Assembly: GCA_037833965.1 (NCBI GenBank)
Contig: AP031353.1
Coordinates: 6,264,501-6,328,500 of the forward strand
DNA: 64,000 nt
Direction of reading: 5' to 3'
Source of the DNA: Marchantia polymorpha subsp. ruderalis
Taxonomy: Eukaryota; Streptophyta; Marchantiopsida; Marchantiales; Marchantiaceae
Positions 16,300 through 43,119 of the stretch are shown piece after piece (within the stretch, counting starts at the first letter, position 1; every line of letters starts with the position of its first letter). The notes under the pieces are model-generated. The model saw nothing but the letters and a program-made list of their open reading frames with translations, searched no databases and was not told the DNA's origin. A program made the position numbers and the translations under genes.

Positions 16300-16490
16300 G
16301 TACACACTCAAATGTCACAACTCGCCCCCCTAGCTGGCGGTCAGGTCCCTCTGACTCCCAGGTAGCCCCATCTACAACTACATGCTATACACCTTCGTGG
16401 GTGCGCGAATCAGTAGACCGGGTGCTATGTCGCCCCATCGTTAGTCGCCTATCTGCAATTCATAACATGTGAAGATCAAGTCATCTACCC

Positions 16491-16838
16491 CTATGAAGTA
16501 CATCGAGGACAAACCCATCGTCCAGCCGGAATAACATCGATAGGCGGAGTTAGGCGCGACATGTGCCATCCCCTAGAGCACCTATCACACACCAACATAC
16601 GGGCCGCCTGACCAGCCGACCCACACAGCATGCACCTCAAGCTAGCACGTACTATCGCTAAGCTTGGGTCCATAGTGCCATCTACGTTTGGGAGGTGGCA
16701 TGGCGCACAATTGCGCACATGATCCTTCCAAACAACGCCGTCACGACCCTCCAACAGGAGAACTCCAGAAGGTAACACCTCCCGCACCCGCAAGATGGTG
16801 CGTCTCGCCGTCAGATCCAATGTCGTCGGTGCAGTCTG
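16491..16838 (-). pseudogene. Element B: PHD-like zinc finger at the polyprotein C-terminus
   Basis: This follows the integrase in the same frame after a TAG at 16839-16841. In the 109-residue open segment ending at 16491 the finger ligands are C63, C66, C78, C81, H86, C104 and C107, with a PHD-typical context (MLVCDRCSRGWHM, then LTPP, then RWVCPRC). The Cys expected three residues after the His is Arg89, so the eighth ligand of a C4HC3 PHD is missing in this copy. PHD fingers generally bind histone H3 tails; on an integrase it would be analogous to the chromodomain of chromoviruses, as an insertion-site reader. That role is inference. Upstream of it is a conserved-looking CAPCHLP stretch of the integrase tail. 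Confidence 0.7.
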
Positions 16839-17246
16839 CTATAGATAGACGTAGTCTCCCACATGGAATCTACGAATTGATGGTCGATAACCTCCTCCCC
16901 GAATGGTTGCATACCGCAACGTATCTCTATGTTGAGCAATCGCAAGAATCTCAAACGCTGCAGGCATAACTCTTCGAAAGAGCTCTGCACGTTGAGAACA
17001 TACTCTCACCCACATATTCGGGTCATCAAGGTTCACCACCTCGCTAGACTCACGACGAATCGATGTTGGCAAGTCTGGATCTCGGCCGTACAATAGAAAA
17101 TATGGTGAGAAGGAAGCCAAGGATGCTTACCGACTGAACTGATATCCCATGGCCAACCACGGTAACTGGATATCCCAGTCCCCAAGATGACCTTTCTGTA
17201 GGCCATACTTGCGCAACGCCCTCTTCACCGTCTGTACAACACGTTC
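16839..17246 (-). pseudogene. Element B: C-terminal part of integrase, cut off by element A
   Basis: It begins at the TSD next to element A and runs in one frame through a TAA (17127-17129) to a TAG (16839-16841). The segment SPYFLLYGRDPDLP is the usual integrase catalytic-domain end (the 'PF/YxLxYGRxP' block), and HVGDYVYL belongs to the GPY/F-like tail. Both stops differ from Gln codons by one C-to-T change. It continues the integrase of 25099-25669. Confidence 0.8.
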
Positions 17247-18100
17247 TGTAAGACCGGGTGTTGCACATATGTACTAAGTCTTAGAAGTGGTCAAGGGAAT
17301 AAGGATGATTAGCCAAGGCATAGCTAAGACTAGCTAGTTATGACTAAACTAGTTAGTTATAACTAAGTTTATCTAGTCATGACTAAGTTTAGCTACAATG
17401 TCTATAGTTGGCGGAATAATTAGCGGAGTTCTAGAAGAATGGAGTGAGCACTTCTATTTTGTCCTTTACAAGGAGTGAGCACTTCTATTTTGTCTTATAC
17501 AAAAGTTCTAGATTCCAAGGGATTAGATATTTGACTAGAAGCTTGGATTTGATTGGTTTGACTAAATGTATGAAAGATGATTGGCTAGACTAAGTCTAAT
17601 GTTGACTTAGTGGCTAGGAAGCTTGTAGAAGTTTAAAAGCTTCAAATGGCATGTCGCCACCTCAACCTTGGATTCCAGAAGCTTCTAGAAGGTTTAGGTA
17701 GGCCAATGGCATGTTGCCACGTAGAGAAGGTTAGTCAAACTTACCTAGGTAAAAGTAAGTTAGGAGAAATTACCACATGTTACTATGGTAACTTCTCAAG
17801 TAGTATAAATAGAGAGGTAGAGTAGCACCTCTCAAGCAAGTTTGGAGAGTCATGTGTGAGGACTTGTTTCAGTAATGAAGGAGTGAAGTTTTTGAGTATC
17901 TTGGAGTATCGACGTGTGTTTGCATTTATGTGAAGAGGGTGATGTGAGGAGAGTTGTGTGTGAGTTGGAGTGATACATGAGAGTTTGTGAAGGTGTTTGG
18001 GACATGAGTGAGAGTATGAATCTTAGTCTTCTAGAACCATGATGCGCTACCACAAAGCCATCAGAGGTAAACCTGAGTGAGAGTCAGCCCGGAGGTTGCA
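17247..18100 (+). repeat. Element A 5' LTR
   Basis: 854 bp, TG...CA ends. U3 holds many TGACTAA/TAGTTA words (17320-17395), a 31-bp-period direct repeat of GGAGTGAGCACTTCTATTTT (17441 and 17472), and a TATAAATAG box at 17804-17812, so transcription should start about 30 bp later. Confidence 0.97.
17804..17812 (+). promoter_or_regulatory. TATA box of element A 5' LTR
   Basis: TATAAATAG in a normal LTR position, about 290 bp before the LTR end. The identical box occurs in the 3' LTR near 24798. Confidence 0.7.
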
Positions 18101-18104
18101 TTTT

Positions 18105-18122
18105 TGGTTCCGTTGCCGGGAC
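18105..18122 (+). other. Element A primer-binding site, tRNA-Asp-like
   Basis: Four bases after the 5' LTR lies TGGTTCCGTTGCCGGGA. It resembles the TGGCGCCGTTGCCGGGGA site (complement of plant tRNA-Asp 3' end) used by Athila-type elements, with changes at positions 4-5 and one G fewer. The RT sequence is also of Athila/Tat style, so the two observations agree. Confidence 0.6.
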
Positions 18123-18777
18123 CTCAATCTAGAAGGCGGAATGTTTAGGATTCGATTTCTAGCTCGAGAGAAAGTATCCATGAGGGATCACTTGGTGTTA
18201 ACATTGGGGAATGAAAGAGCGGAGAGTGTGCTTGAGAGCGAAATTCCATTTGTTTATCCCATAGTCTCATATGATAGCCTAGAAGTGATTTTGTATGTTT
18301 TGTTCACGTAAACATGTCTTTTTGAGAGAAAAGTGATCTTAGACACCGAAAAGTATTTTTGAAGGTATTCTTCAAAGTTTTTATTGATTTTAGAGTGAAA
18401 GATAGAGAAAATTTACGTTTTTGTTTCAGGTCCAGATCATGTGTTAACAGAAAGATATGAGAGTTAGAAGTTGAGTGGGTTTTCACGGGTATCAAAAGTC
18501 TGCTCTCTGGAAAGTTTGTACAGAGTTGATTACTTTTTCTGTATTTCAATTTAGGCTTTGAAACTTCGTACGAGTGTGTATTGGAAGATAAGCTACGTTT
18601 GAGTCAAAATTTCACTGAGAGATCACGTCTAGAGACGAAGTTATGTTGATTTGAAGTTGAGGGGGTACAAAAGCAAGATAACAAAGCAAAAGTTTTTGAT
18701 TTCTTTATTCACAGTTTTCGTCAAGTAGATAGCGTTTCTGGGAGAGGTCTTTTGAGTGGTTTCTACCTTATGGGAAA
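18123..18777 (+). other. Element A leader with a short coding-like module
   Basis: An open frame runs to a TAA at 18309-18311 and includes LGNERAESVLESEIPFVYPI. A recognisably similar peptide is encoded at about 19256-19385, after the 147-residue leader ORF. The rest of the leader shows nothing recognisable. Confidence 0.4.
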
Positions 18778-19221
18778 ATGAGTGAACAAGAAGGTTGGAA
18801 GGTTAGGTTATCCAAAGTACCTCAAGGCTTGGATGTTATAGTGTCTTTAGACTCCAATACAAGAGAATTCAAGGTGGAGTTTGAAGAAAGAGTAGTGAGT
18901 CAATCTCCAAGAGTCAAACGTGAAACTTGTTTTTATTGTGGAGAGGAGGGCCATAAGGTTGTCAATTGTTCCCTGCGGAACAAAGATAGAAGATTGAGGA
19001 GCAAGAGGAACTTGGGAGATTTGAAACTTCACTTGGGACCATCATCGCCACATGAATCCCAAAGCGCCACCTTCTGTGACAATTGCGGAGTGATTGGGCT
19101 ACCAGCGGGACACGAATGCAGCGGAGTGAAGGCACTTCTGGAATCACTTGTGGAAGGGTTTGACGGCAAGCTAAGTGCTGAAACAGAGAAAGTGACCTCA
19201 GCGGGTTCAAGCTCCAACTGA
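18778..19221 (+). CDS. Element A leader ORF with zinc knuckle, 147 residues
   Basis: ATG at 18778, TGA at 19219-19221. It lies upstream of gag-pol in a different frame and is not part of the standard gag. A CCHC knuckle (CFYCGEEGHKVVNC, residues 47-60, spacing CX2CX4HX4C) suggests nucleic-acid binding. A second Cys/His cluster follows (CDNCGVIGLPAGHEC, about 99-113). The N-terminal third contains a short repeated RVV/KVE-rich stretch without a family I recognise. It could be a separate accessory protein or a gag-like relic. The frame is intact in an element that looks recent, which favours function. Confidence 0.55.
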   Translation: MSEQEGWKVRLSKVPQGLDVIVSLDSNTREFKVEFEERVVSQSPRVKRETCFYCGEEGHKVVNCSLRNKDRRLRSKRNLGDLKLHLGPSSPHESQSATFCDNCGVIGLPAGHECSGVKALLESLVEGFDGKLSAETEKVTSAGSSSN

Positions 19222-19413
19222 AGATGGAGATCATCATTCGAATGATGGAGAAGATGATGATGAGGGTAAGACTCATCGTATGCCTAGGAGAGGAGAGAGC
19301 TTTGGCTATCTTGGAACAACCAATTCCTTTTGTGTTTCCTTTGATGAATTACTCAAGGATGGAGTTAGTGTTGTTTATATTGTATTAGGAAGCCCCATAT
19401 AAATTTCCAATAG

Positions 19414-19440
19414 AAAAAAAAAAAAAAAAAAAAAAAAAAA
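19414..19440 (+). repeat. 27-nt poly(A) tract just before gag-pol
   Basis: An uninterrupted run of 27 A residues ends 10 bases before the gag-pol ATG at 19451. The gag-pol frame has a TAG directly after the tract (19441-19443 region), so the ATG is fixed as the start. Homopolymer length may be affected by assembly error. Confidence 0.9.
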
Positions 19441-19450
19441 TTAGTTGGAA

Positions 19451-22400
19451 ATGGGGAAGCTTCCGGTATTTTATGGGAGGGAGAATGAGGATGTAGAAGC
19501 TTTTGTTAGGGACTTCAAGAGGGCTTGCATAGGAAACAATGAGAGGAAGAAAGACGAGTGGGCTATGCTTTTGCCGGATTTCTTGGAGGATTCTGCTCTC
19601 AAGTGGTACAAGGAGTACAAGAGGGAGCATTCGGAGGACGACACGTGGGAGACATTAACGGAGAACCTGATCGAAAACTTTCTTCCCAGTGAAAGTTATG
19701 AAAAGTTGATGTGTGAGGTCACCTTCTTGAAACAAGGAGAGAACGAGAAGGTGAGGACCTATGTGGAGAGAACCGAGAAGTTGGAATCTAGATTCCACGT
19801 GGTGTTGAGGAAGGGCGGAGACGAAGTGGATGCTACAATGGTGGGGATAAGGGCGATGCTCATGAAGAACTTCGTTGGAGGTTTGAGACCAGAGATTCGA
19901 AGTAAGGTGAGATACGAGAAGCCCTCTTCTAAGGCTGAAGCCATTCGAATTGCTATTAGAATGGAGGAGAGCTTAGAAGATGATGATTCTAGCTTGGTGG
20001 CTAGAGAAGTAGCTCCACCGGTTGTAGGAAGGTCTATTGTTTCAAACACTTCTACTTCATCCACGATAGCGAATCCTAGTGTGGATTTTCAAAATGAGTT
20101 GAAATCTATCACGGAGACTCTAGCAGATCTCAAGATCAATGTAGTACAGTTGTGGGAGAAGAGGAATCAGAACGTAGTAGGAGGCTCTAGGGGGTATGGA
20201 AATTATCCTCCAAGAGGAAATCCACCTTCAGGAAACTTTGCGGTTTCTTGCTTTTCTTGTGGAGGTCCTCATTTTCAGAGGAATTGTCCTAACCCTCGAC
20301 AACATGATGGAGTTCGGCACAACAACAATGCACCGGCCACGCAACAAGCCAAGGATAAGGGAGTAGCATCCATTGATGTATTCCCTCATCAATGCACTTT
20401 TGAGAAAGGGGAGAGCTCAAAATCGAAAGTGGATATCCTTGCTCATGAGAAGAAGCGGGCCCGATTTGCGGACGAGTCGATTTTCATGGAGGACACGCCA
20501 AGTCGAAGTACACGGTCAAGTGGAGTGAGTCAACCAAGAGTACCAAGGAAGAAGTTGGGCATGGATGACTTTTCCATTTCATCTTCTCAAGCTAAGTATG
20601 ACGTGGTGGAGGATGTAGGAAATCAGAAGGCCAATATAACAGTTGGTCAGCTGATTGCCTTGAATCCAGCCATTCGGAAGGAGTTAAGAGGAGGTCTTAT
20701 CTCCACAAGGACCAAGAAGCGGAAATCTAAGGGGAAGGCTCACATGACCAATGTGGGAGTTGGGGTGGTGGATGCGGCTGCTTCGGAGGTATGTACACAT
20801 GCTTCAAAGATCGAAGTGAGGATCAATGGACATGATGTATCAGATGTGTTGGTTGATGGTGGATCGGCTGTGAATGCCATGTCTGAGAGGTTGATGCAGA
20901 AGTTGGGTATGCAACCTTCTAGACCTTCTAGCATAATTGTTGGTATGGCCAACAAACAGAAGGTAAGACCACTGGGGGTGGTAGACAAAGTTGTGGTTAG
21001 TGTGAGGGGAGTGCAAACTTTGCTTTCCTTCCAAATTCTCAAGGAAGCTAGCTACGACTTGCTGTTGGGACGTCCTTGGTTGAGGGCGGTAAGGACTACG
21101 GACCGATGGCACAAGGGCTATTTGAGGATAGGCCCAAAGAACCATCGAGTTAAGGTTCCTTTGACGAGAGGAGGGGAATCCACCACTGACTCAGATAGAC
21201 CAACTGACGAGTATTGGGAATCTGAGAGTGAAGAGAGTGGTAGCTTTTCAGAAGTTGACACAGACATCTCAACTTCTGATCAAGAAACATCATCGGAGTA
21301 CTCTTCTGATGATAATGTTCAAGTACAAGTCATTGCTGCCATGGAGTTGTTGCCTAGGCCTGGAGTGAAGAAAGATCCTGACAAAGTGGAGATGAGCGAA
21401 GAGGAGGTGTGTCGACGACTGTCCACTCTCAGGTTTGGTCCCAAGGTTACCAAGGAGGAAAAGGCAAAGTTTCTGGATATATTTCGCAAATATATTCATG
21501 TTTTTGCCTTTAGTTACAAGGATCTTAAGCATGTGACGTTGGAGACTCATCGCATCGAGTTGGAGGAGAAAGCTCGTCCTATTCGGCAAAAGCAACGCCG
21601 AATAAATCCACCTACGGCTCTTGTGGTGAAGGAGGAGATCGACAAGCTCAAGGAGGCTGGCTTCATCTACGAGGTAGAAAATTCTGAATGGGTGTCTCCA
21701 ATTGTGATAGTGAAGAAGAAGAATGGTAAGCTACGAGTGTGCGTAGATTACAAAAAGTTGAATGCTGTCACAAAGAAAGACTACTATCCCTTGCCTTTCA
21801 TAGATGAGATTCTAGAGGAGGTTGCTGGCCATGAGTGGTATAGTTTTGGAGATGGTTATAGTGGCTATAACCAAATCCAAATTGCCTTAGAAGACCAACT
21901 CAAAACAACTTTTACTACTCCATGGGGAACCTTCGCTTTTAGAGTGATGCCGTTTGGTCTATGTAATGCTCCTGCCACTTTTCAAAGGTTCATGAATAGA
22001 GTGTTTGAACCTTTCATTGGAAAGTTTGTAAGGGATTTCATAGATGATTTTTGTGTTTACGGGAGGAAAGCGGATCATTTTGATCATTTGATCAAAATAC
22101 TTCAACGGCTGGAGGAAGCTAAGGCTTCACTCAATCCAGAAAAATGCATTTTTGGATGTGAGGAAGGCCTATTGTTGGGGCATATCATCTCCAAGAATGG
22201 TATAGCGGTGGACCCAGAGAAGGTGACACGGATCATGGAGTTACCTTTTCCGGCGACTTTAACCAAGTTGAGGCAATTCCTTGGTATGGTGGGGTACTAT
22301 CGACGGTTCATCTTGTCCTTCTCCAACAAAGCTCATGCCTTGACAAATTACATGAAGAAGGGAGTGGAGTACGAACTCATTTTCAAGGATGAAGCTGCAA

Positions 22401-24217
22401 AGACGGCGTTCGAAGTTCTCAAGAAGGCGTTGGTGACGGCTCCAATTTTGGCGAAACCGGATTGGGGTAAACCTTTCATTCTCTACACAGATGCATCAAA
22501 TATTGCTGTAGGATGCACCTTGAGTCAATTAGATGATGAAAAGCATGATCATCCAATTGCCTATGCTAGTAGACAAATGGTTCAAGCGGAGAAGAACTAC
22601 TCAGTGACAGAGAGAGAGGCGTTAGCTGTAATCTTCTCACTTAAGAAGTTTCGACATTATTTGTTGGGTGGGAGATTCACTATAGTGACTGATCATAAGG
22701 CTTTGAAATACATTTTCAACAAGCCTAATGCTGAAGGGAGGATAGCTAGATGGAAGCTACTACTAGCAGAGTTTGATTATACCATTGAGGATAGACCTGG
22801 AAAGAAGCATGCTAATGCGGATTTGATGTCGAGAGCATATGATGATGGAGGAGATCAGTCAGTAGATGACACCTTTCCGGATGAGGACTTGCTAGTCATG
22901 GACACGGTGACAACAGTACCGGAGGAGTACAAGGAAATTTGGGATTTCATCTCTAAAGGAGAGTTTTCTCAAGGAATGCATCAAAGGGAGAAAAATGCAT
23001 TAGTGAAGAGATGTCAACCATATATGATCATGGAGAAGGTACTTTTTCATCAAGGAGCTGACGGACTTCTACGAAGGGCGGTTGGGAGAGGAGAGGCATT
23101 ACAACTCATGAAGGAGTTTCATGATGGTGCAGTATGTGGAGGACATTTTGCGGGGAAGGTAACTGCCTTCAAAATTCTTGATGCTGGTTATCATTGGAAG
23201 GGTATTTTTAAGGATTGTGTGGAATATTGCAAAAGTTGTGATGTGTGTCAAGCTTTTGCTAAAAAGTCCATGAAAACCCCTCCTATGATTTCTGTACCAG
23301 TGTTAGGTCCTTTTGAAAAGTGGGGAATAGATTTTGTAGGTCCTTTGAATCTTACTCCTCGAGGGAATAAGTTCATTGTGATAGCTACAGATTATCTTAC
23401 GAAGTGGGTAGAGGCAAGACCACTTAAATCTACTAATGAGAAGGAGGTTGGTAGATTTTTATATGAGAGAATCATTACTCGATTTGGTTGTCCATTGGAG
23501 TTAGTATCAGATAGAGGAGGAGAATTTGTGGGAAGTATGATTCAAGCCATGTTGGAGCACTTTTCCATCAAGGCTCGAGTGACCACTTCCTACAAACCTA
23601 ACGCTAATGGGTTGGCGGAGCGGACCAACTACACTTTGTGTATGATGTTGGCCAAGGATGCAGACATGGACGGGAGTAAACACAATTGGGACAAGAGGCT
23701 CCATGCTATCTTATGGGAGTATCGCACAACATGGAAGACATCTACTGGATACTCACCTTTTCGGATGGTGTATGGAGTTGAGTCAAAACTTCCCATACAG
23801 TTTGACTTGACAACATTCACAACAATCCAGCAAAGGTTGAAGAAATCAAATGGAGCAGAAGCCATCAAGTCTCGCCAACAACAATTGATGGAGTTGGAGG
23901 AAGCTCGAGCACTAGCCATGGTACGAGTGGAGCGGGCTCAACACTTGCAGAAGAAGTATCACGACAAACGAAGTGGAAACCAGAACTTGAAGCCGTTCAA
24001 GGAAGGTGATTGGGTGATGCTCTTTGATGCAATTAGATACAAGAGAGCTAGGAAAAAGTTTCTTCCTAAGTATTTTGGACCTTTCATAGTTGAGAAGGTG
24101 TGGGGAAATTTCACTTATGACATCAAGGAGTTAGGAGGACGTCACTTCGATCGAGTCAACCACGACAAGTTGAAGTTATTCCATCGAAGATCAGATTCTT
24201 TCACTCCGAGGGCGTAG
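19451..24217 (+). CDS. Element A gag-pol polyprotein (gag-PR-RT-RH-INT), intact
   Basis: 1588 codons without interruption; the start is the ATG at 19451 right after an in-frame stop. Order of parts: retroelement gag (LPVFYGRENEDVEAF, residues 3-17, then ALKWY), one knuckle CFSCGGPHFQRNC (CX2CX3HX4C), an aspartic protease with VDGGSAVN (a DGGS active site as in Athila-like elements), RT (VCVDYKKLN, DGYSGYNQI, MPFGLCNAPATFQ, and FIDDF as the YxDD equivalent), RNase H (YTDAS, then TDHKAL), integrase with HHCC zinc site (HFAGK..CKSCDVC), DDE residues (IDFVG, SDRGGEF, NGLAE), and a C-terminal tail without chromodomain. All catalytic motifs are present, so the protein is probably active. Confidence 0.97.
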   Translation: MGKLPVFYGRENEDVEAFVRDFKRACIGNNERKKDEWAMLLPDFLEDSALKWYKEYKREHSEDDTWETLTENLIENFLPSESYEKLMCEVTFLKQGENEKVRTYVERTEKLESRFHVVLRKGGDEVDATMVGIRAMLMKNFVGGLRPEIRSKVRYEKPSSKAEAIRIAIRMEESLEDDDSSLVAREVAPPVVGRSIVSNTSTSSTIANPSVDFQNELKSITETLADLKINVVQLWEKRNQNVVGGSRGYGNYPPRGNPPSGNFAVSCFSCGGPHFQRNCPNPRQHDGVRHNNNAPATQQAKDKGVASIDVFPHQCTFEKGESSKSKVDILAHEKKRARFADESIFMEDTPSRSTRSSGVSQPRVPRKKLGMDDFSISSSQAKYDVVEDVGNQKANITVGQLIALNPAIRKELRGGLISTRTKKRKSKGKAHMTNVGVGVVDAAASEVCTHASKIEVRINGHDVSDVLVDGGSAVNAMSERLMQKLGMQPSRPSSIIVGMANKQKVRPLGVVDKVVVSVRGVQTLLSFQILKEASYDLLLGRPWLRAVRTTDRWHKGYLRIGPKNHRVKVPLTRGGESTTDSDRPTDEYWESESEESGSFSEVDTDISTSDQETSSEYSSDDNVQVQVIAAMELLPRPGVKKDPDKVEMSEEEVCRRLSTLRFGPKVTKEEKAKFLDIFRKYIHVFAFSYKDLKHVTLETHRIELEEKARPIRQKQRRINPPTALVVKEEIDKLKEAGFIYEVENSEWVSPIVIVKKKNGKLRVCVDYKKLNAVTKKDYYPLPFIDEILEEVAGHEWYSFGDGYSGYNQIQIALEDQLKTTFTTPWGTFAFRVMPFGLCNAPATFQRFMNRVFEPFIGKFVRDFIDDFCVYGRKADHFDHLIKILQRLEEAKASLNPEKCIFGCEEGLLLGHIISKNGIAVDPEKVTRIMELPFPATLTKLRQFLGMVGYYRRFILSFSNKAHALTNYMKKGVEYELIFKDEAAKTAFEVLKKALVTAPILAKPDWGKPFILYTDASNIAVGCTLSQLDDEKHDHPIAYASRQMVQAEKNYSVTEREALAVIFSLKKFRHYLLGGRFTIVTDHKALKYIFNKPNAEGRIARWKLLLAEFDYTIEDRPGKKHANADLMSRAYDDGGDQSVDDTFPDEDLLVMDTVTTVPEEYKEIWDFISKGEFSQGMHQREKNALVKRCQPYMIMEKVLFHQGADGLLRRAVGRGEALQLMKEFHDGAVCGGHFAGKVTAFKILDAGYHWKGIFKDCVEYCKSCDVCQAFAKKSMKTPPMISVPVLGPFEKWGIDFVGPLNLTPRGNKFIVIATDYLTKWVEARPLKSTNEKEVGRFLYERIITRFGCPLELVSDRGGEFVGSMIQAMLEHFSIKARVTTSYKPNANGLAERTNYTLCMMLAKDADMDGSKHNWDKRLHAILWEYRTTWKTSTGYSPFRMVYGVESKLPIQFDLTTFTTIQQRLKKSNGAEAIKSRQQQLMELEEARALAMVRVERAQHLQKKYHDKRSGNQNLKPFKEGDWVMLFDAIRYKRARKKFLPKYFGPFIVEKVWGNFTYDIKELGGRHFDRVNHDKLKLFHRRSDSFTPRA

Positions 24218-24227
24218 TGAAATCTTA

Positions 24228-24240
24228 GTCCGGGGGTAAA
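24228..24240 (+). other. Element A polypurine tract
   Basis: A G/A-rich run (GTCCGGGGGTAAA) directly abuts the 3' LTR start TGTAAGACC, the normal position for the plus-strand primer. Confidence 0.7.
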
Positions 24241-25098
24241 TGTAAGACCGGGTGTTGCACATATGTACTAAGTCTTAGAAGTGGTCAAGGGAATAAGGAT
24301 GATTAGCCAAGGCATAGCTAAGACTAGCTAGTTATGACTAAACTAGTTAGTTATAACTAAGTTTATCTAGTCATGACTAAGTTTAGCTACAATGTCTATA
24401 GTTGGCGGAATAATTAGCGGAGTTCTAGAAGAATGGAGTGAGCACTTCTATTTTGTCCTTTACAAGGAGTGAGCACTTCTATTTTGTCTTATACAAAAGT
24501 TCTAGATTCCAAGGGATTAGATATTTGACTAGAAGCTTGGATTTGATTGGTTTGACTAAATGTATGAAAGATGATTGGCTAGACTAAGTCTAATGTTGAC
24601 TTAGTGGCTAGGAAGCTTGTAGAAGTTTAAAAGCTTCAAATGGCATGTCGCCACCTCAACCTTGGATTCCAGAAGCTTCTAGAAGGTTTAGGTAGGCCAA
24701 TGGCATGTTGCCACGTAGAGAAGGTTAGTCAAACTTACCTAGGTAAAAGTAAGTTAGGAGAAATTACCACATGTTACTATGGTAACTTCTCAAGTAGTAT
24801 AAATAGAGAGGTAGAGTAGCACCTCTCAAGCAAGTTTGGAGAGTCATGTGTGAGGACTTGTTTCAGTAATGAAGGAGTGAAGTTTTTGAGTATCTTGGAG
24901 TATCGACGTGTGTTTGCATTTATGTGAAGAGGGTGATGTGAGGAGAGTTGTGTGTGAGTTGGAGTGATACATGAGAGTTTGTAAGAGAAGGTGTTTGGGA
25001 CATGAGTGAGAGTATGAATCTTAGTCTTCTAGAACCATGATGCGCTACCACAAAGCCATCAGAGGTAAACCTGAGTGAGAGTCAGCCCGGAGGTTGCA
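24241..25098 (+). repeat. Element A 3' LTR
   Basis: 858 bp. It matches the 5' LTR throughout apart from a 4-bp insertion after GAGAGTTTGT near 24983. Followed by the TSD GTTC and then element B integrase sequence. Confidence 0.97.
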
Positions 25099-25669
25099 GT
25101 TCAGCTAAACCATCCGCCTCTGGATGATCTCGCGACGTGGTCCGATGATCAATCAGTGCCTTGTCGCACAAGACCTGAAACTCCGTTCCCTGATCGGTCA
25201 ACACCTCAGCTGGTGCACCATAGTGACTAAGCACTCTGTCAAGAAAAGCATACGCTACTCCCTCACTTGCCTTGTCAGGTAATGCCACCAACTCAATCCA
25301 CTTGGAGAAATGCTCCACCATCACCAACACATACCGATGATGTCGTAAAGTCAAAGGTAGTGGTCCAGCAAAGTCCAAACTCCAACGGTAACCCAACCCC
25401 ATGATGGGTAATGGATGTAACACTGGTGTCGGGGCATTGAATGATGCCCTCACTCGATCACAAACCATGCAACGTGATACCAACTGCTGTACCTGAGTAT
25501 GCATACCACGCCACCAATACTGACCAAGGAGTAAGCTGTATGTACGCTTCACTCCAAAATGTCCCAACTCCTCATGAGCATGCCTCACAATGCGTGCTCT
25601 CTGGGCTGGATGTGGTACTACTCGTACCCTACCGTCCTCCCATACTCGGAGAACATGTGATCCCTCCAA
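25099..25669 (-). pseudogene. Element B: integrase N-terminal and catalytic part
   Basis: It follows RT-RNase H in the same frame after a TGA (25670-25672). The HHCC zinc site is visible (HEELGHFGVKRTY, then CMVCDRV), as are the first two catalytic acids (SLDFAGPL and LTDQGTEF) and the third in ADGLAE. Element A begins right after that Glu block; the rest of the integrase is at 16839-17246. Confidence 0.85.
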
Positions 25670-27463
25670 TCAGTACCTCTTGGCCCGTTGGAGAACACGA
25701 TCTCGCTCCTTGGCACCCACTGTGCCTGGCATCATGCAGGTCCGTAGGAACTCCAACACCAATGCATCATCGTATACATCACGCTGATCCACACCACCAT
25801 CCTCAACCTCAGGATCTGGAGATCGACCATCTACTCTCTGACTAGAGTAAGATGTCAGATGATCCTCTCTGCTGGAGTTCCCACGTAACCAACACATGAA
25901 GGCAGATGCATGCCAACCAGGCACCATCTCCTCGTCAACCTCACCATGCCATCTAGCTCCAGTGTCATCCTCCTGGCTAGTGCATGGGTTTCGACTCAAA
26001 CCATCGGCATCTAGGTTCGCAACTCCAGGTCTATGCACCACCTGAAAGTCGTACTCCTGTAAGATGAGAGCCCACCGTGCAAGCTTCCCTATAAGCTTGT
26101 CGGACTCCATCAACCACTTGAGCGGTTGATGATCAGTAACAAGGATGAACTGCGTACCAAACAAGTAACACCTGAAGTGCGCCACAGCCCACACCGCTGC
26201 CAAGCACTCTCCCTCGTACGAACTATACCGCGACTCCGCTGCATTGTTCGAACGACTAGCGTACGCAACCACAAACTCCTTGCCCTCATCATCACGCTGC
26301 GTCAACACCGCTCCAAGTCCCAACATACTCCAATTAGTGTGCAATTGGTATGGACGACCTCTTATAGGTCTCCTCAAGATGGGAGCGGCCACCAACCTGG
26401 CCTTGAGCTCAACAAAAGCTCTCTCCTGCTCATCTCCCCATTGCCACTCCTGATCTGACTTCAGCAACTGGTTCAAAGGCTTGGCTATAGCACTGAACCC
26501 CTTCACATACCTCCGGTAGTAGTTCGCTAAACCCATAAATGCACGAACTCTACTCACATCCGTGGGACGAGGGATGCGTGCAATAGCCTCCACCTTTGCT
26601 TGCTGAACTCCTAAATCACCTGGGTATATCACATGACCCAAGTACTCAACCTTCTCCTGGAAGAACTTACACTTCCCAGGATGTAACCTGAAACCATGAG
26701 CCCTCAATCGCTCAAACACAATCTGCAAGTGTATCTGGTGTTGCTCCATAGTGTCACTAAACACCAAGATATCATCAATGTAACATCTGACAAAATCCAG
26801 CCCCGCCAGGATTCTGTCCATAACCCTCTGAAACTCGGCAGGTGCATTCTTCAACCCAAAGGGTAAGAATCGCCACTGATACAAACAATCCTTGCCGTGG
26901 GAGTTGACGCCCCAAAACGCTGTCTTGGTTTTGTCCTCCTCCCGAATTGGCAACTGATGGTATCCTGCCCGAAGATCCAAAGTACTAAAAATCCTCGCAT
27001 GTCCCACCACATCGAAGATCTCCTCAGGTGTAGGCATGGCATACTTATCGGACTTCGTCTGCCGATTGATAGGACGGTAGTCTCCACACATGCGCCTATC
27101 CGTGTAGTTGCCATGTACATCCTTCTTCACCGGCATGACAGTGGCTGACGCATACTCACCATGCGATAACTCCACTAGTCCAGCCTTCAGTAGGTCCAAC
27201 GTCCTACTCCGAATCAAATCTCTCTCCATCTCACTGTATCGATAAGGACGACGGAAGATTGGCGTATCACTAGCCAATTCTATCCGTATACCGAGTCCAA
27301 TCAAATCACCCAACTCCTTCATACTGAAGGCAAAACAACTCCTATAGTCTCGTAGGAATTGTGTCAATCGTCGCCTCTCTCCTCCTGTGATCTGGGAACC
27401 AAGCAATGGCTCCCATTCCTCCTCCATAGGCACACTAGAGGGAGGCGACACTGTCAATGGTTG
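25670..27463 (-). pseudogene. Element B: reverse transcriptase and RNase H
   Basis: One open segment of about 597 codons between TAG 27464-27466 and TGA 25670-25672. RT blocks: MCGDYRPIN, STLDLRAGYHQL, FLPFGLKNAPAEFQ, and the catalytic YIDD with DDILVFSD, then LGHVIYPG. RNase H: HTNWS, SRYSSYEGECLAAVWA, TDHQPLKWL and DADGLSR. The first RNase H catalytic position, normally Asp in H/YTDxS, is Asn (codon AAT at 26333-26335), a single G-to-A change on the coding strand. RT itself looks complete. Confidence 0.9.
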
Positions 27464-27499
27464 CTACGCTACACACTGCAAAGAAGGGTTCTCCGTACC

Positions 27500-28720
27500 C
27501 TACTTCGTAGCCACCTCCACCTGAGAATCCCCTCCAACTGCATGAGCTGCAACTCTGGCAAGTCCTTTCGTCACGTCCCATAAACTCCAAGGATGACGAA
27601 TATCTTGCCAATCGCCCCCAGCCATTGCTACTACCGTCCCGGTAGGCAATGAGCTAATAAGTGGTGTTACAACCACCAAATCTGCGCGCAAACGGCGTTG
27701 CTCGGCCAAATCCAAGCTCACAATCCATGTCAAGCAGTTCAGGTCCATAGCCTGACCCAAAACCTGACGACGCGACGCCTCTGAAACTGAAGAAGCCGCG
27801 GTCACACCAGTAAGAAACCCCATCGCACGCTCTCTCTCATCAGCGTTGGGCTCCACCAACTGATGTAGGGTACTGTCCCATAGTAGTCCAGGTCCCCCAT
27901 CACGATATGCATGTGATGCCGGATAACTGACAAATGTAGGTAAAGCCATCCGAGGCTGACCTACGCGGTTCACCAACGCCATTGGTGACCTGTCAGCAAC
28001 TCTCACTACTTGAGAGTGCCGGGAAACATTCAAGATACTGTCAACGGTGAGTGTAGTATCACGCTTCACCGAATCATAGGCATGACGCAATATCTCACGT
28101 GGCAAAAGGTTGGTCCACCACAAACGTGCACGATGCGCCCGTGATCCAACCCTCGCAGCATCCAACAGTACTGCTGATCCAATCCATGCTCGGACTTGAT
28201 GGACACTCGCCATCAATTGGGCCCGAGTGTCACCCAACAATGGTACGTTCTCCAGAATGTATGCTGGAGAACGTGTCTGCTGCACTTGGAGATGACGTAA
28301 CACTCGCATCATCTCCCAAAACATCCGAGATCTGGGATCATGCAACCTTGTCCCATGTCCAGCGCGTGTGTGTCCCTGACATGGCCAGCCCGCAATCACC
28401 ATATCAATATGGCCAACGCGGTCAAGGTCTGGCGCCCCCAGCAACGAAATGTCTGAAGGCAACGCCTTCTGGAATCCTCGGACAGCTGATCGCGGCAACA
28501 ATGAAGGGAAACGCCGCATCAACTGTGCAACATGTCGTGAAGAGACTCGACGTGCAGTCTCGTCCTTCTCCACATATAAGTATCTCCGTACGAGAATACC
28601 TGACTGCAACACTGCAGCCAAACCTGTGCTGATTCCACCAAAAAGATCCAGCAAACAAACGCCCTCTGAGGAATACTCCCATGCAATAGGTGTAGTAACC
28701 AATGGAGACCTAGCTAGAAC
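27500..28720 (-). CDS. Element B: C5-cytosine DNA methyltransferase domain inside the polyprotein
   Basis: About 406 codons without a stop between protease and RT (the 400-residue numbering below starts at TTG 28702). Motifs in order: I LLDLFGGISTG (17-27); an acidic motif II (VEKD, 44-47); IV IAGWPCQG with catalytic Cys108; VI ENV (151-153); VIII RAHRARLWW (188-196); a variable 200-280 region in the place of the target-recognition domain; IX ERERAMGF (290-297... block); X VLGQAMDLNCLTWIV. Motif VIII and the FGGISTG block are closest to DNMT3/DRM-style enzymes as I remember them. There is no bacterial R-M partner. It ends at TAG 27500-27502, in the same frame as RT, with another TAG at 27464-27466; both could be former Gln codons, so it was probably part of one Pol precursor. 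Expected role: methylating element cDNA or genomic copies. That role is inferred. Confidence 0.85.
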   Translation of the reverse strand, partial: VLARSPLVTTPIAWEYSSEGVCLLDLFGGISTGLAAVLQSGILVRRYLYVEKDETARRVSSRHVAQLMRRFPSLLPRSAVRGFQKALPSDISLLGAPDLDRVGHIDMVIAGWPCQGHTRAGHGTRLHDPRSRMFWEMMRVLRHLQVQQTRSPAYILENVPLLGDTRAQLMASVHQVRAWIGSAVLLDAARVGSRAHRARLWWTNLLPREILRHAYDSVKRDTTLTVDSILNVSRHSQVVRVADRSPMALVNRVGQPRMALPTFVSYPASHAYRDGGPGLLWDSTLHQLVEPNADERERAMGFLTGVTAASSVSEASRRQVLGQAMDLNCLTWIVSLDLAEQRRLRADLVVVTPLISSLPTGTVVAMAGGDWQDIRHPWSLWDVTKGLARVAAHAVGGDSQVEVATK

Positions 28721-31545
28721 CTAGAACCACTAACGAGCCGATCAGCTGAAGCCCTGTCTGGTTCTGCTGGTAAAGAGGCTTCACTCCAAGCCTTTCTCAC
28801 CAACCTATCAGCCTCCAACTGTAGTGCTTGGCACGAACTCCACAGTGGAACATCTAAGGGTGAAGTCACCGCTGCTGTGCAACCCACAACCTCCTCCACA
28901 TCCTCGTAGAGTGAGGTATCGTCGGCAGTCATGTTCCCCTCCAACAAGTCATCGGGCCAAGTAAGCACTCCGCTAAAACCCGCAACAGATGCCAAGACCG
29001 CTGATGAAGATCCAAGAGGTCGATCCCGAGAAATGAATCTCACTGGCAGCTCGCTCAGACGTCCATCTCCGGACTGCCAACCAGGACGATATGCGGCAGT
29101 CTCCGTCCAATAGTCCATCCGAAAGCCCATCGGGTATAACACCACTCCACCAACAAGCACATCATATGACTCTGCTGATGTAACCACAGCACGAACTCCA
29201 AACTGCGAGCTATCATGAGGGTGATCATGCCTCAACTGCACCGCTATGCTCTCCTTGGTCATAAAGTAAGACCTATTGCTGGCGCCACCAAGGGATGTCT
29301 GGATCTGGAAGGGGCAAGGTTCCAACTCTGACCTCCGAATGCCCAAACTAATGCATGCAGCCTTGCCCAACATCAAGGGCTGTGCACCAGAATCCAACAA
29401 AACTCTGGCTGGGACATACACCTGTCCAGTAGAACTCACTAACCGAAATAGACCACTTCGGTTGTCCACCATACATACACCAGGAACAATACTCTCGCGA
29501 TCAATGGCTGGGCGAGCTGGTAAGGACTCCATCCTCGCCGCTGCGGCCTGCCAAGTCGTCTCCTTGAACGATGTAGACGTTGAGGATGGGTCCTCAACTG
29601 TATCCTCACGTATCTCGGCACTCGTAGCAGCGACTCTCCCATGCTCACACAACGTGGCTGCTACCCGAAATACTCGAGCCAAATCAATACCAGAGTCTAT
29701 CAACTCCGTGGCTGAGAACAATGGAGATCGCAAGACTGAAGTGGCCATCCGCATCACTGCACTAGATGGCACGTCTGCGCCCATAACAGATGATGTAAGA
29801 ACCTCAGTTCTCACTCTAGTGTCAGTAGGCGGTGCAGGTCTCATAGATGAACTTCTACCCACCTCTAACAACAAAAAGGACTGGGGAAGTCTAGACTGAC
29901 GTCCACCCTCACCCCTCTGAGGGTCCAACTCCACAGTCGCACCACGTGGCTCTGAAGTGCGAGCACCACCTCTGGTCACTGCAACTGATGCCTCAACCTG
30001 TGCTGCACTGGCCAAATAGGAGAAATCCTCTCCCTCGTAAGATGTGGAAGTGCTCGCCCCCAGACCGGCCATAGCAGCAAGCCTCTGCTCCAACTGCTCA
30101 ATCCGAGCAGCCATAGCGCTCTCTGTGGCAGAAGTAGCACTCGCTGCGGTACGCTCAATGGCCCCGATACCTCTACCACCTCTACCACCTCTGCCACCTC
30201 GACCACCTTGGCCTCGCGGAGCATCACCTCCACGACCTCTACCTCCAGATCTCAACTCAGGATGAAGGTCAAAGCAACGCTCTCGAGGGTGACCCGGTCG
30301 ATGACAATGATCACAGGTCACATGTGCCGGCTGTGGCCTAGCCTGTGGAGTTTGTCCCTCTCGCTCCTGGGGACAATCCTTCCTCATATGGCTACCTCCG
30401 CATGTCCAACATGACGGTCCCTGTGGCTGACCCGAAAATGAAGGCAGTGGTGGCCGCGCACTAGGCTCTCTATGACCTGAAGGATGTCGTGTATGACCTC
30501 CACGACTCCCACTTATGGGGCGAGACTGTGCTGGGCTATGTGGGATACGCGAGGTAGTGGTCGTGTCCCTCGCAAATGTAGACGTCACCACCCTCTCCTC
30601 CACCATGTTAAGCTCAATCTTCTCAGAAAGAGCAAACACATGGGCTAGTGTGGGTGATGAGTCGCTCATGAGAGTAGCATCACGCACTCTCCTCCGCAAC
30701 TCTCTGTCAATGATCCGATACCAGTACTAGACAGCATGTGCCTCAGTCACACCGTGAGTAACTGAGATGAGCCGTCGCATACGAGTGTATGCCTCACGAA
30801 GACTCTCACCAGTCTTCCGCTCAAACTCCTGGAGGCTCCTCAACTTCTCCGTTTTCACCCCTTGATAATTCTTCCTCAATCTCTGGAAGAACTCAGGAAT
30901 GGGGCTAAACGAAGGTACGCCACCAGCATCTCCCCTCGTGCTGCCACCGGCAATGCTAACAGTACCGCTGCTGGTACTAGTACCAGTTGCGCCAACTGCT
31001 CCACTGGTACCCTCGCTGATGCTACTACTCGCACCTCCACTGATGCCGATACTCGCAGCTCCACTGGTACCCACACCACCCTGGGTAATGGATGAGTAGT
31101 TCGGAGACCAATGCCGTCTCCATGCATCAATCTCTACAGCATACTCTCTCCCAAACTCATGATAATCGTCCATGGGAGGCCCCTCCAAATGCTACAATAA
31201 TCCCTTCCATGCAAAGAAGGGTGTAAACAACGTGGGGTTACGCAGAAACTGCATATCACACCACGTGTCGAACTCCTGAATAAAATCATCAAGCTCGATG
31301 GTGCCCACTGCACCAGAGTAACGTCGAGGGCCCTTCGCGGCCCCGTACATCCCGTCCATGTCCCAAATCAATGGGGTGGGGACACTAGACGATATCACCA
31401 CCAAAGACTCTCTGTCTGCAACACTCTGGTCCTGCTCCGCAACAACTCGCGAAATAGGTGAAGGTAGCTGATACCTCAACCCATTCCGCGTAAATCCCCC
31501 GCGGCCCTCAACAGGACCACTAGACTGCTCCGTGATGGCGAGACT
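28714..31545 (-). pseudogene. Element B: gag and aspartic protease, with in-frame stops
   Basis: One frame from below a TGA at 31546-31548 to the stop at 28714-28716, broken by TAG at 31192-31194 and 30727-30729. Gag-like parts: FEKWC-type segment DDFIQEFDTWCDMQFL (near 31260), a Ser/Gly/Thr-rich spacer, EFERKTGESLREAYTRMRRL. In the segment 28714-30699 there are two knuckles, CWTCGGSHMRKDC (CX2CX3HX4C) and CDHCHRPGHPRERC (CX2CX4HX4C), an RGG-rich run (about residues 151-177), a short coiled coil (SAMAARIEQLEQRLAAM), and the protease with LLDSGAQ (434-440) and YDVLVGGVVLYPMG. The frame then shifts by -1 into the methyltransferase. The gag start was not located. Confidence 0.8.
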
Positions 31546-31580
31546 TCAACTGGCACCACTGCCAGATCTCCACCCAATAA

Positions 31581-31717
31581 CCCAATCCGCCTCTGATGCC
31601 GTGCTGCACTGAGCTACTCTAGCCCTACTAGCTAAGGTGTATGGGCAACCTAACCTGTCATCACAGCAAGAAGACTCTCACGGTCTACTGGTCATCACTC
31701 CAGTCTCACCGTGAGAG
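31581..31717 (-). other. Element B candidate primer site and leader hairpin
   Basis: Minus-strand GGCATCAGAGG (about 31590-31601) resembles the initiator-Met primer site TGGTATCAGAG with transitions, weak on its own. Just upstream in the element, CTCTCACGGT (31675-31684) and ACCGTGAGAG (31708-31717) are perfect inverted repeats, with an inner ACTGG/CCAGT stem and an 8-nt loop. Confidence 0.4.
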
Positions 31718-33060
31718 AAACATAGATAGACCGGCCGGTGATCAAGTCCAGCCCCCTATCGCCAGCACACAGGAGTAAAACTACTCCGGAAATCAGCATC
31801 ACCCCTACACGGACGCGCACCAGGAAGCAAGACTGGAGAGGATCCAAACACAAGCAACCAGCTAGCAACGACTCTCCAGTCTAAAGGAAACACAGCACAA
31901 AACAAGACAACACACACGGGACATCGCATCGCTTCGCGATCCCGATTCGATCTCCATCGCCCTCCATTTACGTGGGCCTCCAGTGCCTATGATGCCCTCT
32001 TCCACCAAATTGCAAACAAAAATTGTTTGAAAACTTTTTACTTTTTTTTTTTTTCTTTCTCCTTCACACAGGGGTCACACTGCCCCTCAACAAACACACT
32101 ACACACTGAAAGCTCAATATATTGACTACGTCATATATATATTTACAATGCTTTCAAAACATCACGTCACAGGTAGTGAAACCGGGTGCAAACTCCTGAT
32201 CCCTTCAGGAACTCCTATCTAAACGCTACAAGTATTTGCTATCAATCCTTTGAGAGACTATCAAGAAATTTCTCTAGTACAAGAATTTCTTCTGAAAGAC
32301 AATCTTGAACATACTAAACATCTCTCAAATGGTCAGCAATATCCTGTGGAAGGTCTAGTAACTCATCCTCACATATCCTATACTCTAGGCCGGATTCCTC
32401 TAGAAGTTTCTCTACGGCTAGTGCCTCGTCCCAATCTAACCCGGAATCTTTTTCTTCTGCCACAACAGTGTTTGCCGGATTCTCTTCTACTTGAGGCTGC
32501 ACCGTCACCTCTTGCTCCTGATCACGTTCCTCGCTACTGACGACTTCCACTGTCTGGATTTCTTGTATATCACTGTCATCCGCTTTTTCTCCAAGCGGCA
32601 TTTTCCCTTTATAGTTAACACTTCACAGTGTACAAGGATAATTGTTTTTACAGAGAATTTGTAAACTAAATCTGGAGTGAAAACTAAAAACTGTTTAACT
32701 ATAAAACTATAAAAAGGTTTGAATAGCTTTAAAGAACTTGGCATAAACAAATTCACTTGAACTAGTGAATTTGAAATTTTCTACAGCAAACTTAGCACTG
32801 CTGTATTTTATCACAAATCTGATTGTAATCAAAAGACCTGCATAGGCCAACTTCACCTAGCAGATCTCCAAAAACAGAGGCTACAGCTATTGGACTCTTT
32901 CAGTATGGTATTATGCCAACTAAGTCACACATAATCCTCTTTGGCTCAAGTATAGCACACTATGTAATTAAGTTCGTGTGGATATAGGTGGCTGAACATC
33001 CAAGTAGATATTCGAAAGCAATGTCACTAAACATTCTTTTACCATGAAATGTTTTAGGAA
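31718..33060. other. Region upstream of element B, unassigned
   Basis: 31.7-32.1 kb may hold B's 5' LTR or leader but could not be matched to the other end. A pyrimidine run lies at 32037-32062. Beyond it is an acidic open frame (32314-32601) and AT-rich DNA. Confidence 0.35.
32314..32601 (-). CDS. Hypothetical acidic 95-residue protein
   Basis: ATG at 32601 and stop at 32314. Very rich in Glu and Asp (about a third of residues), with no knuckle, membrane segment or family motif that I recognise. It could be a small gene, a first exon, or part of a retroelement; its neighbours give no help. Confidence 0.25.
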   Translation of the reverse strand: MPLGEKADDSDIQEIQTVEVVSSEERDQEQEVTVQPQVEENPANTVVAEEKDSGLDWDEALAVEKLLEESGLEYRICEDELLDLPQDIADHLRDV

Positions 33061-34345: not shown

Positions 34346-35699
34346 TCTCCCTGTATTTCACTACCTATCGACCCTAAAGCGATTCGTTCCAGGACATCAA
34401 AAGTCCCCAGGCAGCGAATCGGCCGACTTCAACACAGGTTGAAAAATCCCAGTCTCCCACGATGCATCTCAATGCTGCTGCTTTCCGAGTGAGCTGTGCT
34501 GGACCGGAAAAATCCGCAGCAAAGACAGGACTGCACGATCGGTGGTATAGTGTGGATACTGATCCTAGAAATGTCGCTATTAGCTCTCCTCCTCTTCGCC
34601 GACCAATTCCCCACGAACACTGTAGTTCAGTGGAGTAATATGTGCCGTGGAGCGCAGAGTAAAGATCTCCTTATCCGCAGTCTCAAATCTTTCACCGGAT
34701 CGAGCTCTCGGCCCTAATCCAATTGGCTCCGGGAAAGCAATGAATCACATGAGCGGTTCCCAGAAGGCAAAAGAGCAAATTCTCAAGCTGTCCGAACACC
34801 TCTGATCGCTCCATCTACCAAATGACTCCCGTCTTTCCTCCACCCCTACGGAACTCATGATGCTGGCCCGCCATAGCTGGCACTCCTCGAGCTCTCGTCT
34901 CCTCCTTCACTGCCTTTCCTCGATATGCTTGCTCGCTTCCGCGATACTACGTACAACACTACTACCGCCACCCCAATACTGTTGTAACAGATTACTTCGT
35001 TTACTCCGCGAACCGAACGAACGTACTGAAATGAAGCTTCAAACTGAATTTTCCCTCTTCCCATCGAAGATTATCGACCGAAATCCAACAATATTCTCAG
35101 TATTCCTGTCACTGACGGCCCCAGACCGTCACCCAAGATCAACGCTCTCAGTCGATCAACCTACTTCAAATCTCCAGTCGAGACTATCGGAGTCCACAAG
35201 CAAAATTGAAATCACTAATCCTAGGACAAGAGGCTAAATTCTGCAACACCACCAGCAACGATTCTTTTTGCTGTTTTACAGCGAGTTCTTCGAGTGAAAT
35301 GTACGGGAATTCCCCACTGGAATTCCCGTCGGTCAATTACCCTACTGGCAACAAACCGTCACCGTCACAAACATGAGTCAAGCCCAACCCACTCCACACT
35401 CGGAGAATCCAGGTCGACGCAAAGGGGAAAGTCACTCTACTCTCCCAACGCTTCCAGGCTCGACTCAAAGAACTGACGTTCTTCGAGCCGTCCCCGACTG
35501 TATACCCCTCGTGACCGGAACCCTAACTTTACGGCTAAATATAGTAAGTGTTTGAACTTCGTGAGCCGACTCGTAACTACATGACAGCGACCATGACAGA
35601 AGTTGCTTCCAACTCCCAGACGTTCTTGTTTGAATCACATTCAGCTTGTACCTACGATACATTAGCAACAATAAAAATGTCAAATATGGTGATTGCTTT
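34346..35699. other. Unassigned moderately GC-rich region
   Basis: No gene recognised; short open frames on both strands lack domain content. A perfect 10-bp inverted repeat (ACGGGAATTC / GAATTCCCGT, 7-nt spacer) lies at 35303-35329. Confidence 0.35.
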
Positions 35700-42429: not shown

Positions 42430-42672
42430 AGTGTTACCTCCTTGGTCCAACCTTAATAGTTAATCAAGATGAATTTCAAGTAGAAAAGATATTAAAAAAA
42501 CATATTTGAGTCCATAAATATCCCAAGATTCATTATTTGGTTCAATGGAAAGAACCTCCATCATACGAATCAACTTGGGAACCAACTATAAATGTAGCTA
42601 ATGCACTGTTGATAATTGAAGAATTTGAACCGATGAGCAACTAAGACGTTGCGTCTTAAAAGGAGGGAGGTT
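42430..42672 (+). pseudogene. Chromovirus integrase tail with chromodomain, and polypurine tract
   Basis: 42459-42630 on the plus strand reads as a chromodomain: DEFQVEKILKKH, then YLVQWKEPPSYESTWEP, then LLIIEEFE, with one stop. AAAAGGAGGGAGG (42658-42670) is a polypurine tract directly before the LTR at 42673. Chromodomains direct integration through methylated histone H3. Confidence 0.75.
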
Positions 42673-43093
42673 TGTAATAATCTTTAATTCTTTAGAATTA
42701 AAGTAGGGGTTGTTCAAGATGAAGTTATAGTGCACTAGTCATAGTTGTCACGTCAACGATCCACGTGCTTGGTAGGTAGAGAGTAAGTGTGTTAGTTGAT
42801 TAGTTGCAATGTCAGCGATCCGTGTGTTTGGTAGGTAGAGAGTAAATGTGTTAGTTAAAAACCCCACGTCACCAATCCGTGTGCTTGTAAGATAAAATTT
42901 GAGTATGTTAGTTAAGAGCCTCAAGTCATTCATCCACTAGACGTGGAATGGATAGTGAGGATTAAGATCTTATCTCATTGTACTTGTTGGTAAAAGCTAT
43001 ATAAGGAAGAGTAGAATCATTATTGATATCTTTCAACTTCAAATTTTATATTTTCATCTTCAAGTGATATTTTCTTTAAACCCTAGTGCTACA
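42673..43093 (+). mobile_element. LTR of the chromovirus family, copy 3 (3' LTR)
   Basis: Starts TGTAATAATC after the polypurine tract and ends AGTGCTACA. It shares the CACGTCA..GATCC modules, TATATAAGG, and the AAACCCTAGTG end with the solo LTRs at 6517 and 36878. The linkage to a chromodomain types the whole family as chromovirus Ty3/gypsy. Confidence 0.85.
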
Positions 43094-43119
43094 ATTATTA
43101 GTTTTGTAGTAATTAGTGT

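Follow-up and report, generated by a model that had tools for sequence, protein, structure and literature searches.

Dnmt3-class DNA methyltransferase (DNMT) domains have been described in two retroelements that resemble the locus studied here: KnitGypsy-Dnmt3 of the charophyte alga Klebsormidium nitens, a Gypsy-type element whose domain, part of the Pol open reading frame, is presented as acquired within the K. nitens lineage, and SymbioDIRS-Dnmt3 of Symbiodinium, which carries a tyrosine recombinase and a DIRS-type reverse transcriptase (RT) (PMC5890265). Two SymbioDIRS domains were active in yeast, and methylation of complementary DNA (cDNA) was proposed for the DIRS kind (PMC5890265). Some DNMT3 members of streptophytes and dinoflagellates have likewise been reported as embedded in retrotransposons (PMC12344493). 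We analysed a window of 64,000 nucleotides from the liverwort Marchantia polymorpha subsp. ruderalis (contig AP031353.1, positions 6,264,501 to 6,328,500), in which an element that we call element B carries a DNMT3-class C5-cytosine methyltransferase (MTase) domain within the coding region of a Ty3/gypsy-type retroelement. In the open-licence literature as available (including PMC12344493, PMC6453930 and PMC9516144) no earlier report of such an element in land plants was found, nor was its anatomy found described; Marchantia is absent from the available main text of PMC5890265, and the two Marchantia passages available in PMC12344493 concern N4-methylcytosine (4mC).

The MTase frame of element B occupies 406 codons plus a stop on the minus strand (28720-27500), which bears out the sequence-only reading of an uninterrupted frame of about 400 residues between protease (PR) and RT. 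All six motif strings named in that reading (LLDLFGGISTG, GWPCQG, ENV, RAHRARLWW, ERERAMGF and VLGQAMD) are present in the translation, and the suggested profile comparison gave a PF00145 match (E=1.3e-9) of 38.4 bits against a curated cut-off of 22. As a single sequence the domain has DNMT3A as its top PDB relative (E=3e-9), and both profile and structure comparison place DNMT3A and DNMT3B as the nearest solved structures; structural alignments to them give 18-24% identity. A 24-row alignment of the family shows the catalytic cysteine C114, and residues in motifs IV, VI and VIII, conserved at 90% or more where not invariant. As in the KnitGypsy-Dnmt3 kind, the Dnmt3-class domain is not rearranged. 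Unlike DNMT3A and DNMT3B, it is encoded in a retroelement, and no PWWP or ADD domain was found next to it by Pfam. Its top named protein relatives are from M. polymorpha itself, MARPO_0008s0049 being 96% identical. The parts of the window copy, together with the younger element nested in it, are as follows.

35296..35588, minus strand: 5' terminal repeat A of element B, with TGTCAT at 35586 (blastn of repeat A; 96.9% identity with that of copy c4)
31546..32720, minus strand: piece of the long untranslated leader (92% identity with that of copy c4)
30730..31545, minus strand: Gag region, interrupted in frame by stops at 31192-31194 and 30727-30729 (Retrotrans_gag E=0.012, under the cut-off)
28717..30726, minus strand: remaining Gag with CCHC knuckles, and aspartic protease with DSGA (RVP_2 E=0.059, below cut-off; homologous to PR of relatives)
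27503..28720, minus strand: DNMT3-class C5-cytosine MTase domain and tail (PF00145, PDB sequences, AlphaFold, Foldseek, VIA-align)
27500..27502, minus strand: premature TAG private to this copy (none of the 29 other copies read has it)
27464..27466, minus strand: conserved TAG followed by CAACCA, putative readthrough stop (comparison of copies and of relative L001)
25673..27463, minus strand: reverse transcriptase and RNase H (Pfam RVT_1, RT_RNaseH, RT_RNaseH_2)
25102..25669, minus strand: integrase part 1 (zinc-binding domain plus core), interrupted by nested element A (Pfam)
17247..25101, plus strand: element A, a younger long terminal repeat (LTR) element nested inside the integrase of element B (LTRs 99.4% identical)
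16842..17246, minus strand: integrase part 2, open from 17126 (frame reading)
16494..16838, minus strand: C-terminal part of Pol, including the PHD finger (PF00628 above its cut-off, E=1.8e-9)
16204..16322, minus strand: repeat B (blastn, edges read)

RT-RNase H and integrase exceed their Pfam cut-offs, whereas Gag and PR are weak in Pfam and were recognised through homology to relatives; when the window copy is aligned with copy c4, its Gag begins where the open first frame of c4 begins. The window copy is dead despite its open MTase domain, because Gag contains stops, Gag-PR lies in a different frame from the MTase owing to a frameshift (the frames overlap at 28714-28720), the private stop follows the MTase, further stops lie at 25670-25672 and 16839-16841, and the PHD finger has lost a zinc ligand, with arginine (GWHMSRL) for the cysteine found in 10 of 10 fetched copies. 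Of the repeats, one 5' A and one 3' B were found in the window copy; a second A-B at the 3' end was not found, nor were matching 4-bp target duplications seen.

Open copies of the same element occur elsewhere in the genome. Searches of the 241-Mb assembly (9 contigs, labelled C1, C2 and so on) gave 719 MTase candidates, 102 of which were scored (the window copy included), and 3916 RT candidates, of which 73 were scored. The MTase domain is stop-free in 66 of the 102 copies, and in 26 it lies within a frame open over 1340 codons or more, which reads as Gag-PR-MTase in the 10 longer copies that were fetched. Six motif strings are kept exactly by 26 of 30 copies read as DNA, three lacking an exact GWPCQG and one GQAM. 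Upstream of 54 of the 73 scored RT matches a scored MTase lies on the same strand, in 51 cases with a gap of exactly 39 nt. The remaining 19 have none of the 102 scored MTase matches upstream, and their MTase may be truncated or simply unscored; in the sole one inspected (C2:20756105) the first frame is reduced to its last 96 codons. The MTase of element B is thus neither a chance neighbour nor an assembly chimera, and the land-plant case proposed from sequence is real and repeated across the liverwort genome. With many open copies, the DNMT3-bearing element is a large, recently mobile and apparently functional family.

In the 10 longer copies the coding region consists of a first frame of 1361 or 1365 codons (Gag-PR-MTase) and a second of 1042 or 1045 codons (RT-RNase H-integrase-PHD) that ends just after the PHD finger; one of them (c7) has a stop inside the second frame. 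The order RT-RNase H-integrase and the gypsy-type RT identify the element as Ty3/gypsy. These in-phase frames are divided by TAG CAACCA in 29 of 29 other copies and in 10 of 10 longer ones (the two sets overlap), and a distant relative with 48% identity, L001, has TAG CAATCA at the same place. UAG-CARYYA is the tobamovirus-type readthrough context, and the element's stop, which conforms to it, is a predicted readthrough signal. The sequence-only reading had placed the MTase in the RT frame, as part of Pol. The phase is as stated (the distance between 28720 and 27463 is divisible by 3), but two TAGs intervene (27500-27502 and 27464-27466), and the domain, while in the coding region of the element, is joined to Gag-PR, with the conserved UAG before RT. 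Among the protein matches, many of them fragments, there are several sets in which the tail that follows the MTase is of constant length (86-87 residues in nine proteins, 128-135 in seven).

Complete copies consist of an A repeat of ~292 bp, a leader (~4.1 kb in c4), the two frames, B (119 bp), GC, A and B, with TGTC...GACA ends. Ends were analysed in eight copies picked among 40 scored repeat-A matches; others (e.g., C8:3498239 with C8:3508942) were left out, as were, among the long copies, c2, whose 3' side is rearranged, c7, for which the closest A among the matches listed lies ~25 kb upstream, and c1, c5, c8, c9 and c10, for which those matches include no 5' A. The A-coding-B-A-B order and an exact 4-bp flanking duplication (ATCT, AAAG, AGTG, AATC, CTAT, ACGT, AAAG and AAGC) were found in 8 of 8. 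Paired A repeats differ at 0-4 of ~292 sites (with one gap column in one copy) and paired B repeats at 0 or 1 of 118, which marks these eight insertions as recent. An exact 18-mer spanning the B-GC-A junction has 161 occurrences genome-wide (reversed control, 0), and for 34 of the 56 scored MTase matches on C1-C5 a B-A junction lies downstream at the expected distance, compared with none upstream at that distance; the other 22 have no exact junction there. An ordinary LTR pair was considered and rejected for element B: none was found in the window, and the eight copies with both ends read carry split direct repeats. Membership of DIRS was rejected as well, since Pfam scans of the frames showed no tyrosine recombinase, a DDE integrase is present and 4-bp duplications flank all eight copies. 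Eight patterns for transfer RNA (tRNA) primer sites were matched exactly neither in L001 nor in the window. The leader differs among copies, c1 and c3 ceasing to match c4 ~419 bp upstream of the first frame; c4, c5 and c7 share it over at least 2.3 kb (L051 and L055 versus L057, L059 and L063; upstream of position ~2747).

Constraint was estimated as the ratio of nonsynonymous to synonymous substitution (dN/dS) by the Nei-Gojobori method, for four pairs between two subfamilies of the host genome and two pairs within a subfamily. For the MTase the ratio was 0.11, 0.13, 0.11 and 0.14 between subfamilies and 0.15 and 0.16 within, indicating purifying selection on the element's MTase and below the Ka/Ks of 0.2 applied to MTases in PMC5890265. 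In the four between-subfamily pairs this is about equal to the constraint on PR (0.09-0.13), with 0.15-0.20 for the PR-MTase linker, 0.14-0.16 for Gag, 0.23-0.25 for the Gag knuckle region and 0.54-0.83 for the MTase tail, which is nearly free to change.

Three protein searches, the first contributing the best 120 of its 164 matches, yielded 190 protein ids, with named relatives among the matches listed from Marchantia, Riccia, Calypogeia, Sphagnum, Closterium, Klebsormidium, Monoraphidium and Cymbomonas; family motifs are retained down to 31% identity. Among the first 166 proteins two orders were seen, PR-MTase-RT (type I) and RT-RNase H-MTase-integrase-PHD (type II), the MTase alone being visible in 108. 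Parts of type II were seen in Monoraphidium and Cymbomonas gene models, and in the chlorophyte relatives the MTase lies behind RNase H. The two types fall on opposite sides of one branch both in the MTase tree (43 rows, 36 labelled; 100/98) and in the RT tree (15 rows, 13 labelled; 96/97). Only domains covering >70% of the profile entered the MTase trees. For most rows the order label comes from the protein itself; P0006 and P0010 (MTase only) were labelled type I from their kin, P0001 from its protease linker, and P0168, P0169, P0172 and P0173 from named upstream Gag knuckles or protease. The simplest reading of these trees is one lineage that has probably carried the MTase for a long time, with one change of MTase position. 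Horizontal spread or a second capture may have occurred instead, since host DNMT3 genes were not included and the root is unreliable, the sole outgroup being a DNMT3A fragment on a long branch. The relatives in liverworts, Sphagnum, Closterium, Klebsormidium and chlorophytes argue against a capture confined to Klebsormidium.

The 9285-bp contig L001 has ends that overlap by 127 bp and open frames for PR-MTase and RT-RNase H-integrase-PHD, and the top PDB relative of its RT is that of Ty3. It is filed under a cyanobacterial metagenome-assembled genome (MAG), and P0038 is named as a protein of a bacterial MAG. L001 looks like a eukaryote-type retroelement and was treated as mis-binned; P0038 likewise looks like eukaryote sequence in a bacterial bin. 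A bacterial origin was rejected, the family profile finding among genomes four Streptomyces loci (29-40%) besides L001, as was a viral one: the single MTase protein had no relative in the viral collection, where the family profile recovered distant C5-MTases alone (15 loci, 26-41%, short pieces). Some type II relatives have an extra C-terminal domain past the PHD finger (P0187 1731-2022, P0157 877-1149 and, in part, P0160) whose motifs EPFNGTGTI and TSPWF resemble those of a class I methyltransferase; that of P0187 had no Pfam match and only a chance match in PDB. The Cymbomonas gene model P0161 joins ankyrin repeats to RNase H-MTase-integrase and is probably a fused model.

Judged by its sequence, the Marchantia family belongs to the KnitGypsy-Dnmt3 kind, with which it shares a Dnmt3-class domain in a Gypsy-type element, DIRS-like A-coding-B-A-B repeats and purifying selection; split repeats with Gypsy domains agree with the available legend of Fig. 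4 for the Klebsormidium element (PMC5890265). The algal precedent named in the sequence-only reading is more than an analogy, the Klebsormidium proteins being homologous to the Marchantia family: the partial K. nitens protein KFL_013780020 (P0168) has a zinc knuckle, the DSGA protease motif and a homologous MTase, ends 12 residues past the MTase and sits among the type I rows of the MTase tree. Nevertheless, the Marchantia and Klebsormidium members are far apart in that tree, and the conserved MTase/RT stop, the PHD finger, target duplications and land-plant hosts were not found in the available account of KnitGypsy-Dnmt3 (PMC5890265). With SymbioDIRS-Dnmt3 the family shares a Dnmt3 in an A-coding-B-A-B retroelement and the coexistence of two domain orders; it differs, as far as that account was available, in its DDE integrase and 4-bp duplications (PMC5890265). 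Like ordinary Ty3/gypsy LTR elements such as element A, element B has Gag, PR, RT, RNase H and integrase in gypsy order; it departs from them in the MTase, the PHD finger and the MTase/RT stop, and in having no LTR pair found. By sequence, the PHD finger of L001, an intact relative, comes closest to those of CHD4, yeast Cph2, PHF12, UHRF1, KMT2 and KDM5 proteins, several of which read the unmodified H3 tail, and a PHD finger also occurs in the algal LTR element REM1. DNMT3A and DNMT3B pair their enzyme with a PHD-like histone reader, ADD, so that the combination of MTase and histone reader (PHD) in one element is a further likeness to them.

We regard the anatomy of the element (domain order, stop, ends, target duplications and conservation) as practically settled. 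As to what the MTase does, methylation of cDNA inside the particle is the likeliest mechanism, at about even odds, and anatomy and mechanism together, with the rivals below in view, we put at roughly 55%. Gag-PR-MTase would be the main product, to which occasional readthrough of the conserved UAG-CARYYA would add RT-RNase H-integrase-PHD. Because the MTase lies in the first frame and readthrough would be only occasional, the enzyme would be made at Gag-like rather than Pol-like levels and packaged in the particle, where it would act de novo on freshly made double-stranded cDNA, methylating it ahead of integration. Insertion of the TGTC...GACA ends with a 4-bp target duplication would then fall to the DDE integrase; the PHD finger may help to choose the chromatin, probably that with an unmodified H3 tail. 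Pre-methylated cDNA might be hidden from host defences, or be placed in tolerated, silent chromatin. That the element marks its own copies is what we infer.

Several observations weigh against this proposal. In the relatives P0131 and P0117 the MTase runs into RT in one frame with no stop, so that the stop is common and not universal. An in-frame ATG lies 12 codons past it in the 10 longer copies (none was found within the 60 nt read after the L001 stop), and for this reason the UAG could serve re-initiation at the downstream ATG. Constraint on the MTase is weaker than on RT and RNase H (dN/dS 0.04-0.06) or integrase (0.06-0.08), and motif IV reads PCQ in place of the PCN of DNMT3A and DNMT3B. 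The CpG observed/expected ratio of the frames is 0.69-0.73 in four copies, compared with 0.55 for element A and 0.76 for the whole window, and no mark of extra CpG methylation or CpG loss was seen in the element frames of these copies. KnitGypsy-Dnmt3 gave no methylation in yeast, a result that its authors call inconclusive in the available text (PMC5890265). Partners of the PHD finger are deduced from its kin. Finally, element A has no DNMT and also moved recently, indicating that a DNMT is not needed for retrotransposition as such.

The strongest competitor, which we consider possible and clearly less probable, is that the MTase has its targets in trans, in host chromatin or other copies, shifting silencing in the element's favour, its place beside Gag-PR being incidental. 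DNMT3 enzymes do work on chromatin, the same element has a PHD finger like those of CHD4, PHF12, UHRF1 and KDM5, and a large family could supply a large dose; yet the MTase and the PHD finger lie in separate frames with a stop between them, so that most of the enzyme would be linked to Gag. Purifying selection on the MTase would also fit self-restraint, whereby insertions arrive methylated, remain silent and do less damage to the host, an explanation considered by de Mendoza et al. in 2018 (PMC5890265, available text). This we judge unlikely, as it requires a benefit at the level of the host, and several near-identical young insertions speak for recent movement of the family.

Methylation of RNA (the element's own or a primer tRNA), as carried out by DNMT2, seems less likely still: the fold is shared with DNMT2 (about 1e-9 by profile) and the enzyme would be packaged with RNA, but DNMT3 is clearly ahead in the profile and structure ranking. 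The available text of the 2018 study raised RNA methylation for the DNMT of a long interspersed element (LINE) (PMC5890265). That the domain is a functionless passenger, or a one-off chimera or misassembly, has very little to recommend it beyond the several breaks in the window copy; 66 of 102 scored copies free of stops, the low between-subfamily dN/dS and motifs kept in distant relatives all oppose a passenger, and a chimera is already refuted by the scored genome copies and the paired MTase-RT matches. Taking in-particle methylation of cDNA further, we tentatively suggest an ancient green-plant lineage that both writes and reads chromatin, packaging its MTase with Gag, methylating its own cDNA before integration and choosing chromatin through the PHD finger; its MTase might have been captured once before the chlorophyte/streptophyte split (or have spread later) and moved once within the polyprotein. 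This wider picture is less probable than its mechanistic core.

Elsewhere in the window, element A has an open gag-pol frame of 1590 codons and appears to be flanked by GTTC on both sides. A tandem repeat lies at 59619-60299 (period ~226 bp, copies 98-99% identical), and a repeat of ~400 bp is present as three related stretches (6516-6924, 36876-37207 and 42672-43095; 73-94% identical in pieces), one of them inverted.

DNMT-bearing retroelements were reported earlier from dinoflagellates and one charophyte alga; the kind is now placed in a liverwort genome, and homology ties the family to sequences of Sphagnum, Closterium and chlorophytes as well as to the Klebsormidium element. The distribution of these relatives bears on the 2018 conclusion, as given in the available text, that the domain was acquired in the K. 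nitens lineage (PMC5890265). Some Marchantia and Sphagnum database proteins are pieces of the element, a few of them named cytosine methyltransferases, so that inventories of DNMTs are affected. The combination of split direct repeats, a DDE integrase and exact 4-bp target duplications poses an unusual replication problem in itself. With a conserved UAG parting the MTase from RT and leaving it joined to Gag-protease, the layout predicts the place and the amount in which the enzyme would be made, and what a transposon gains from a DNMT3 of its own can now be tested in a genetically tractable plant.
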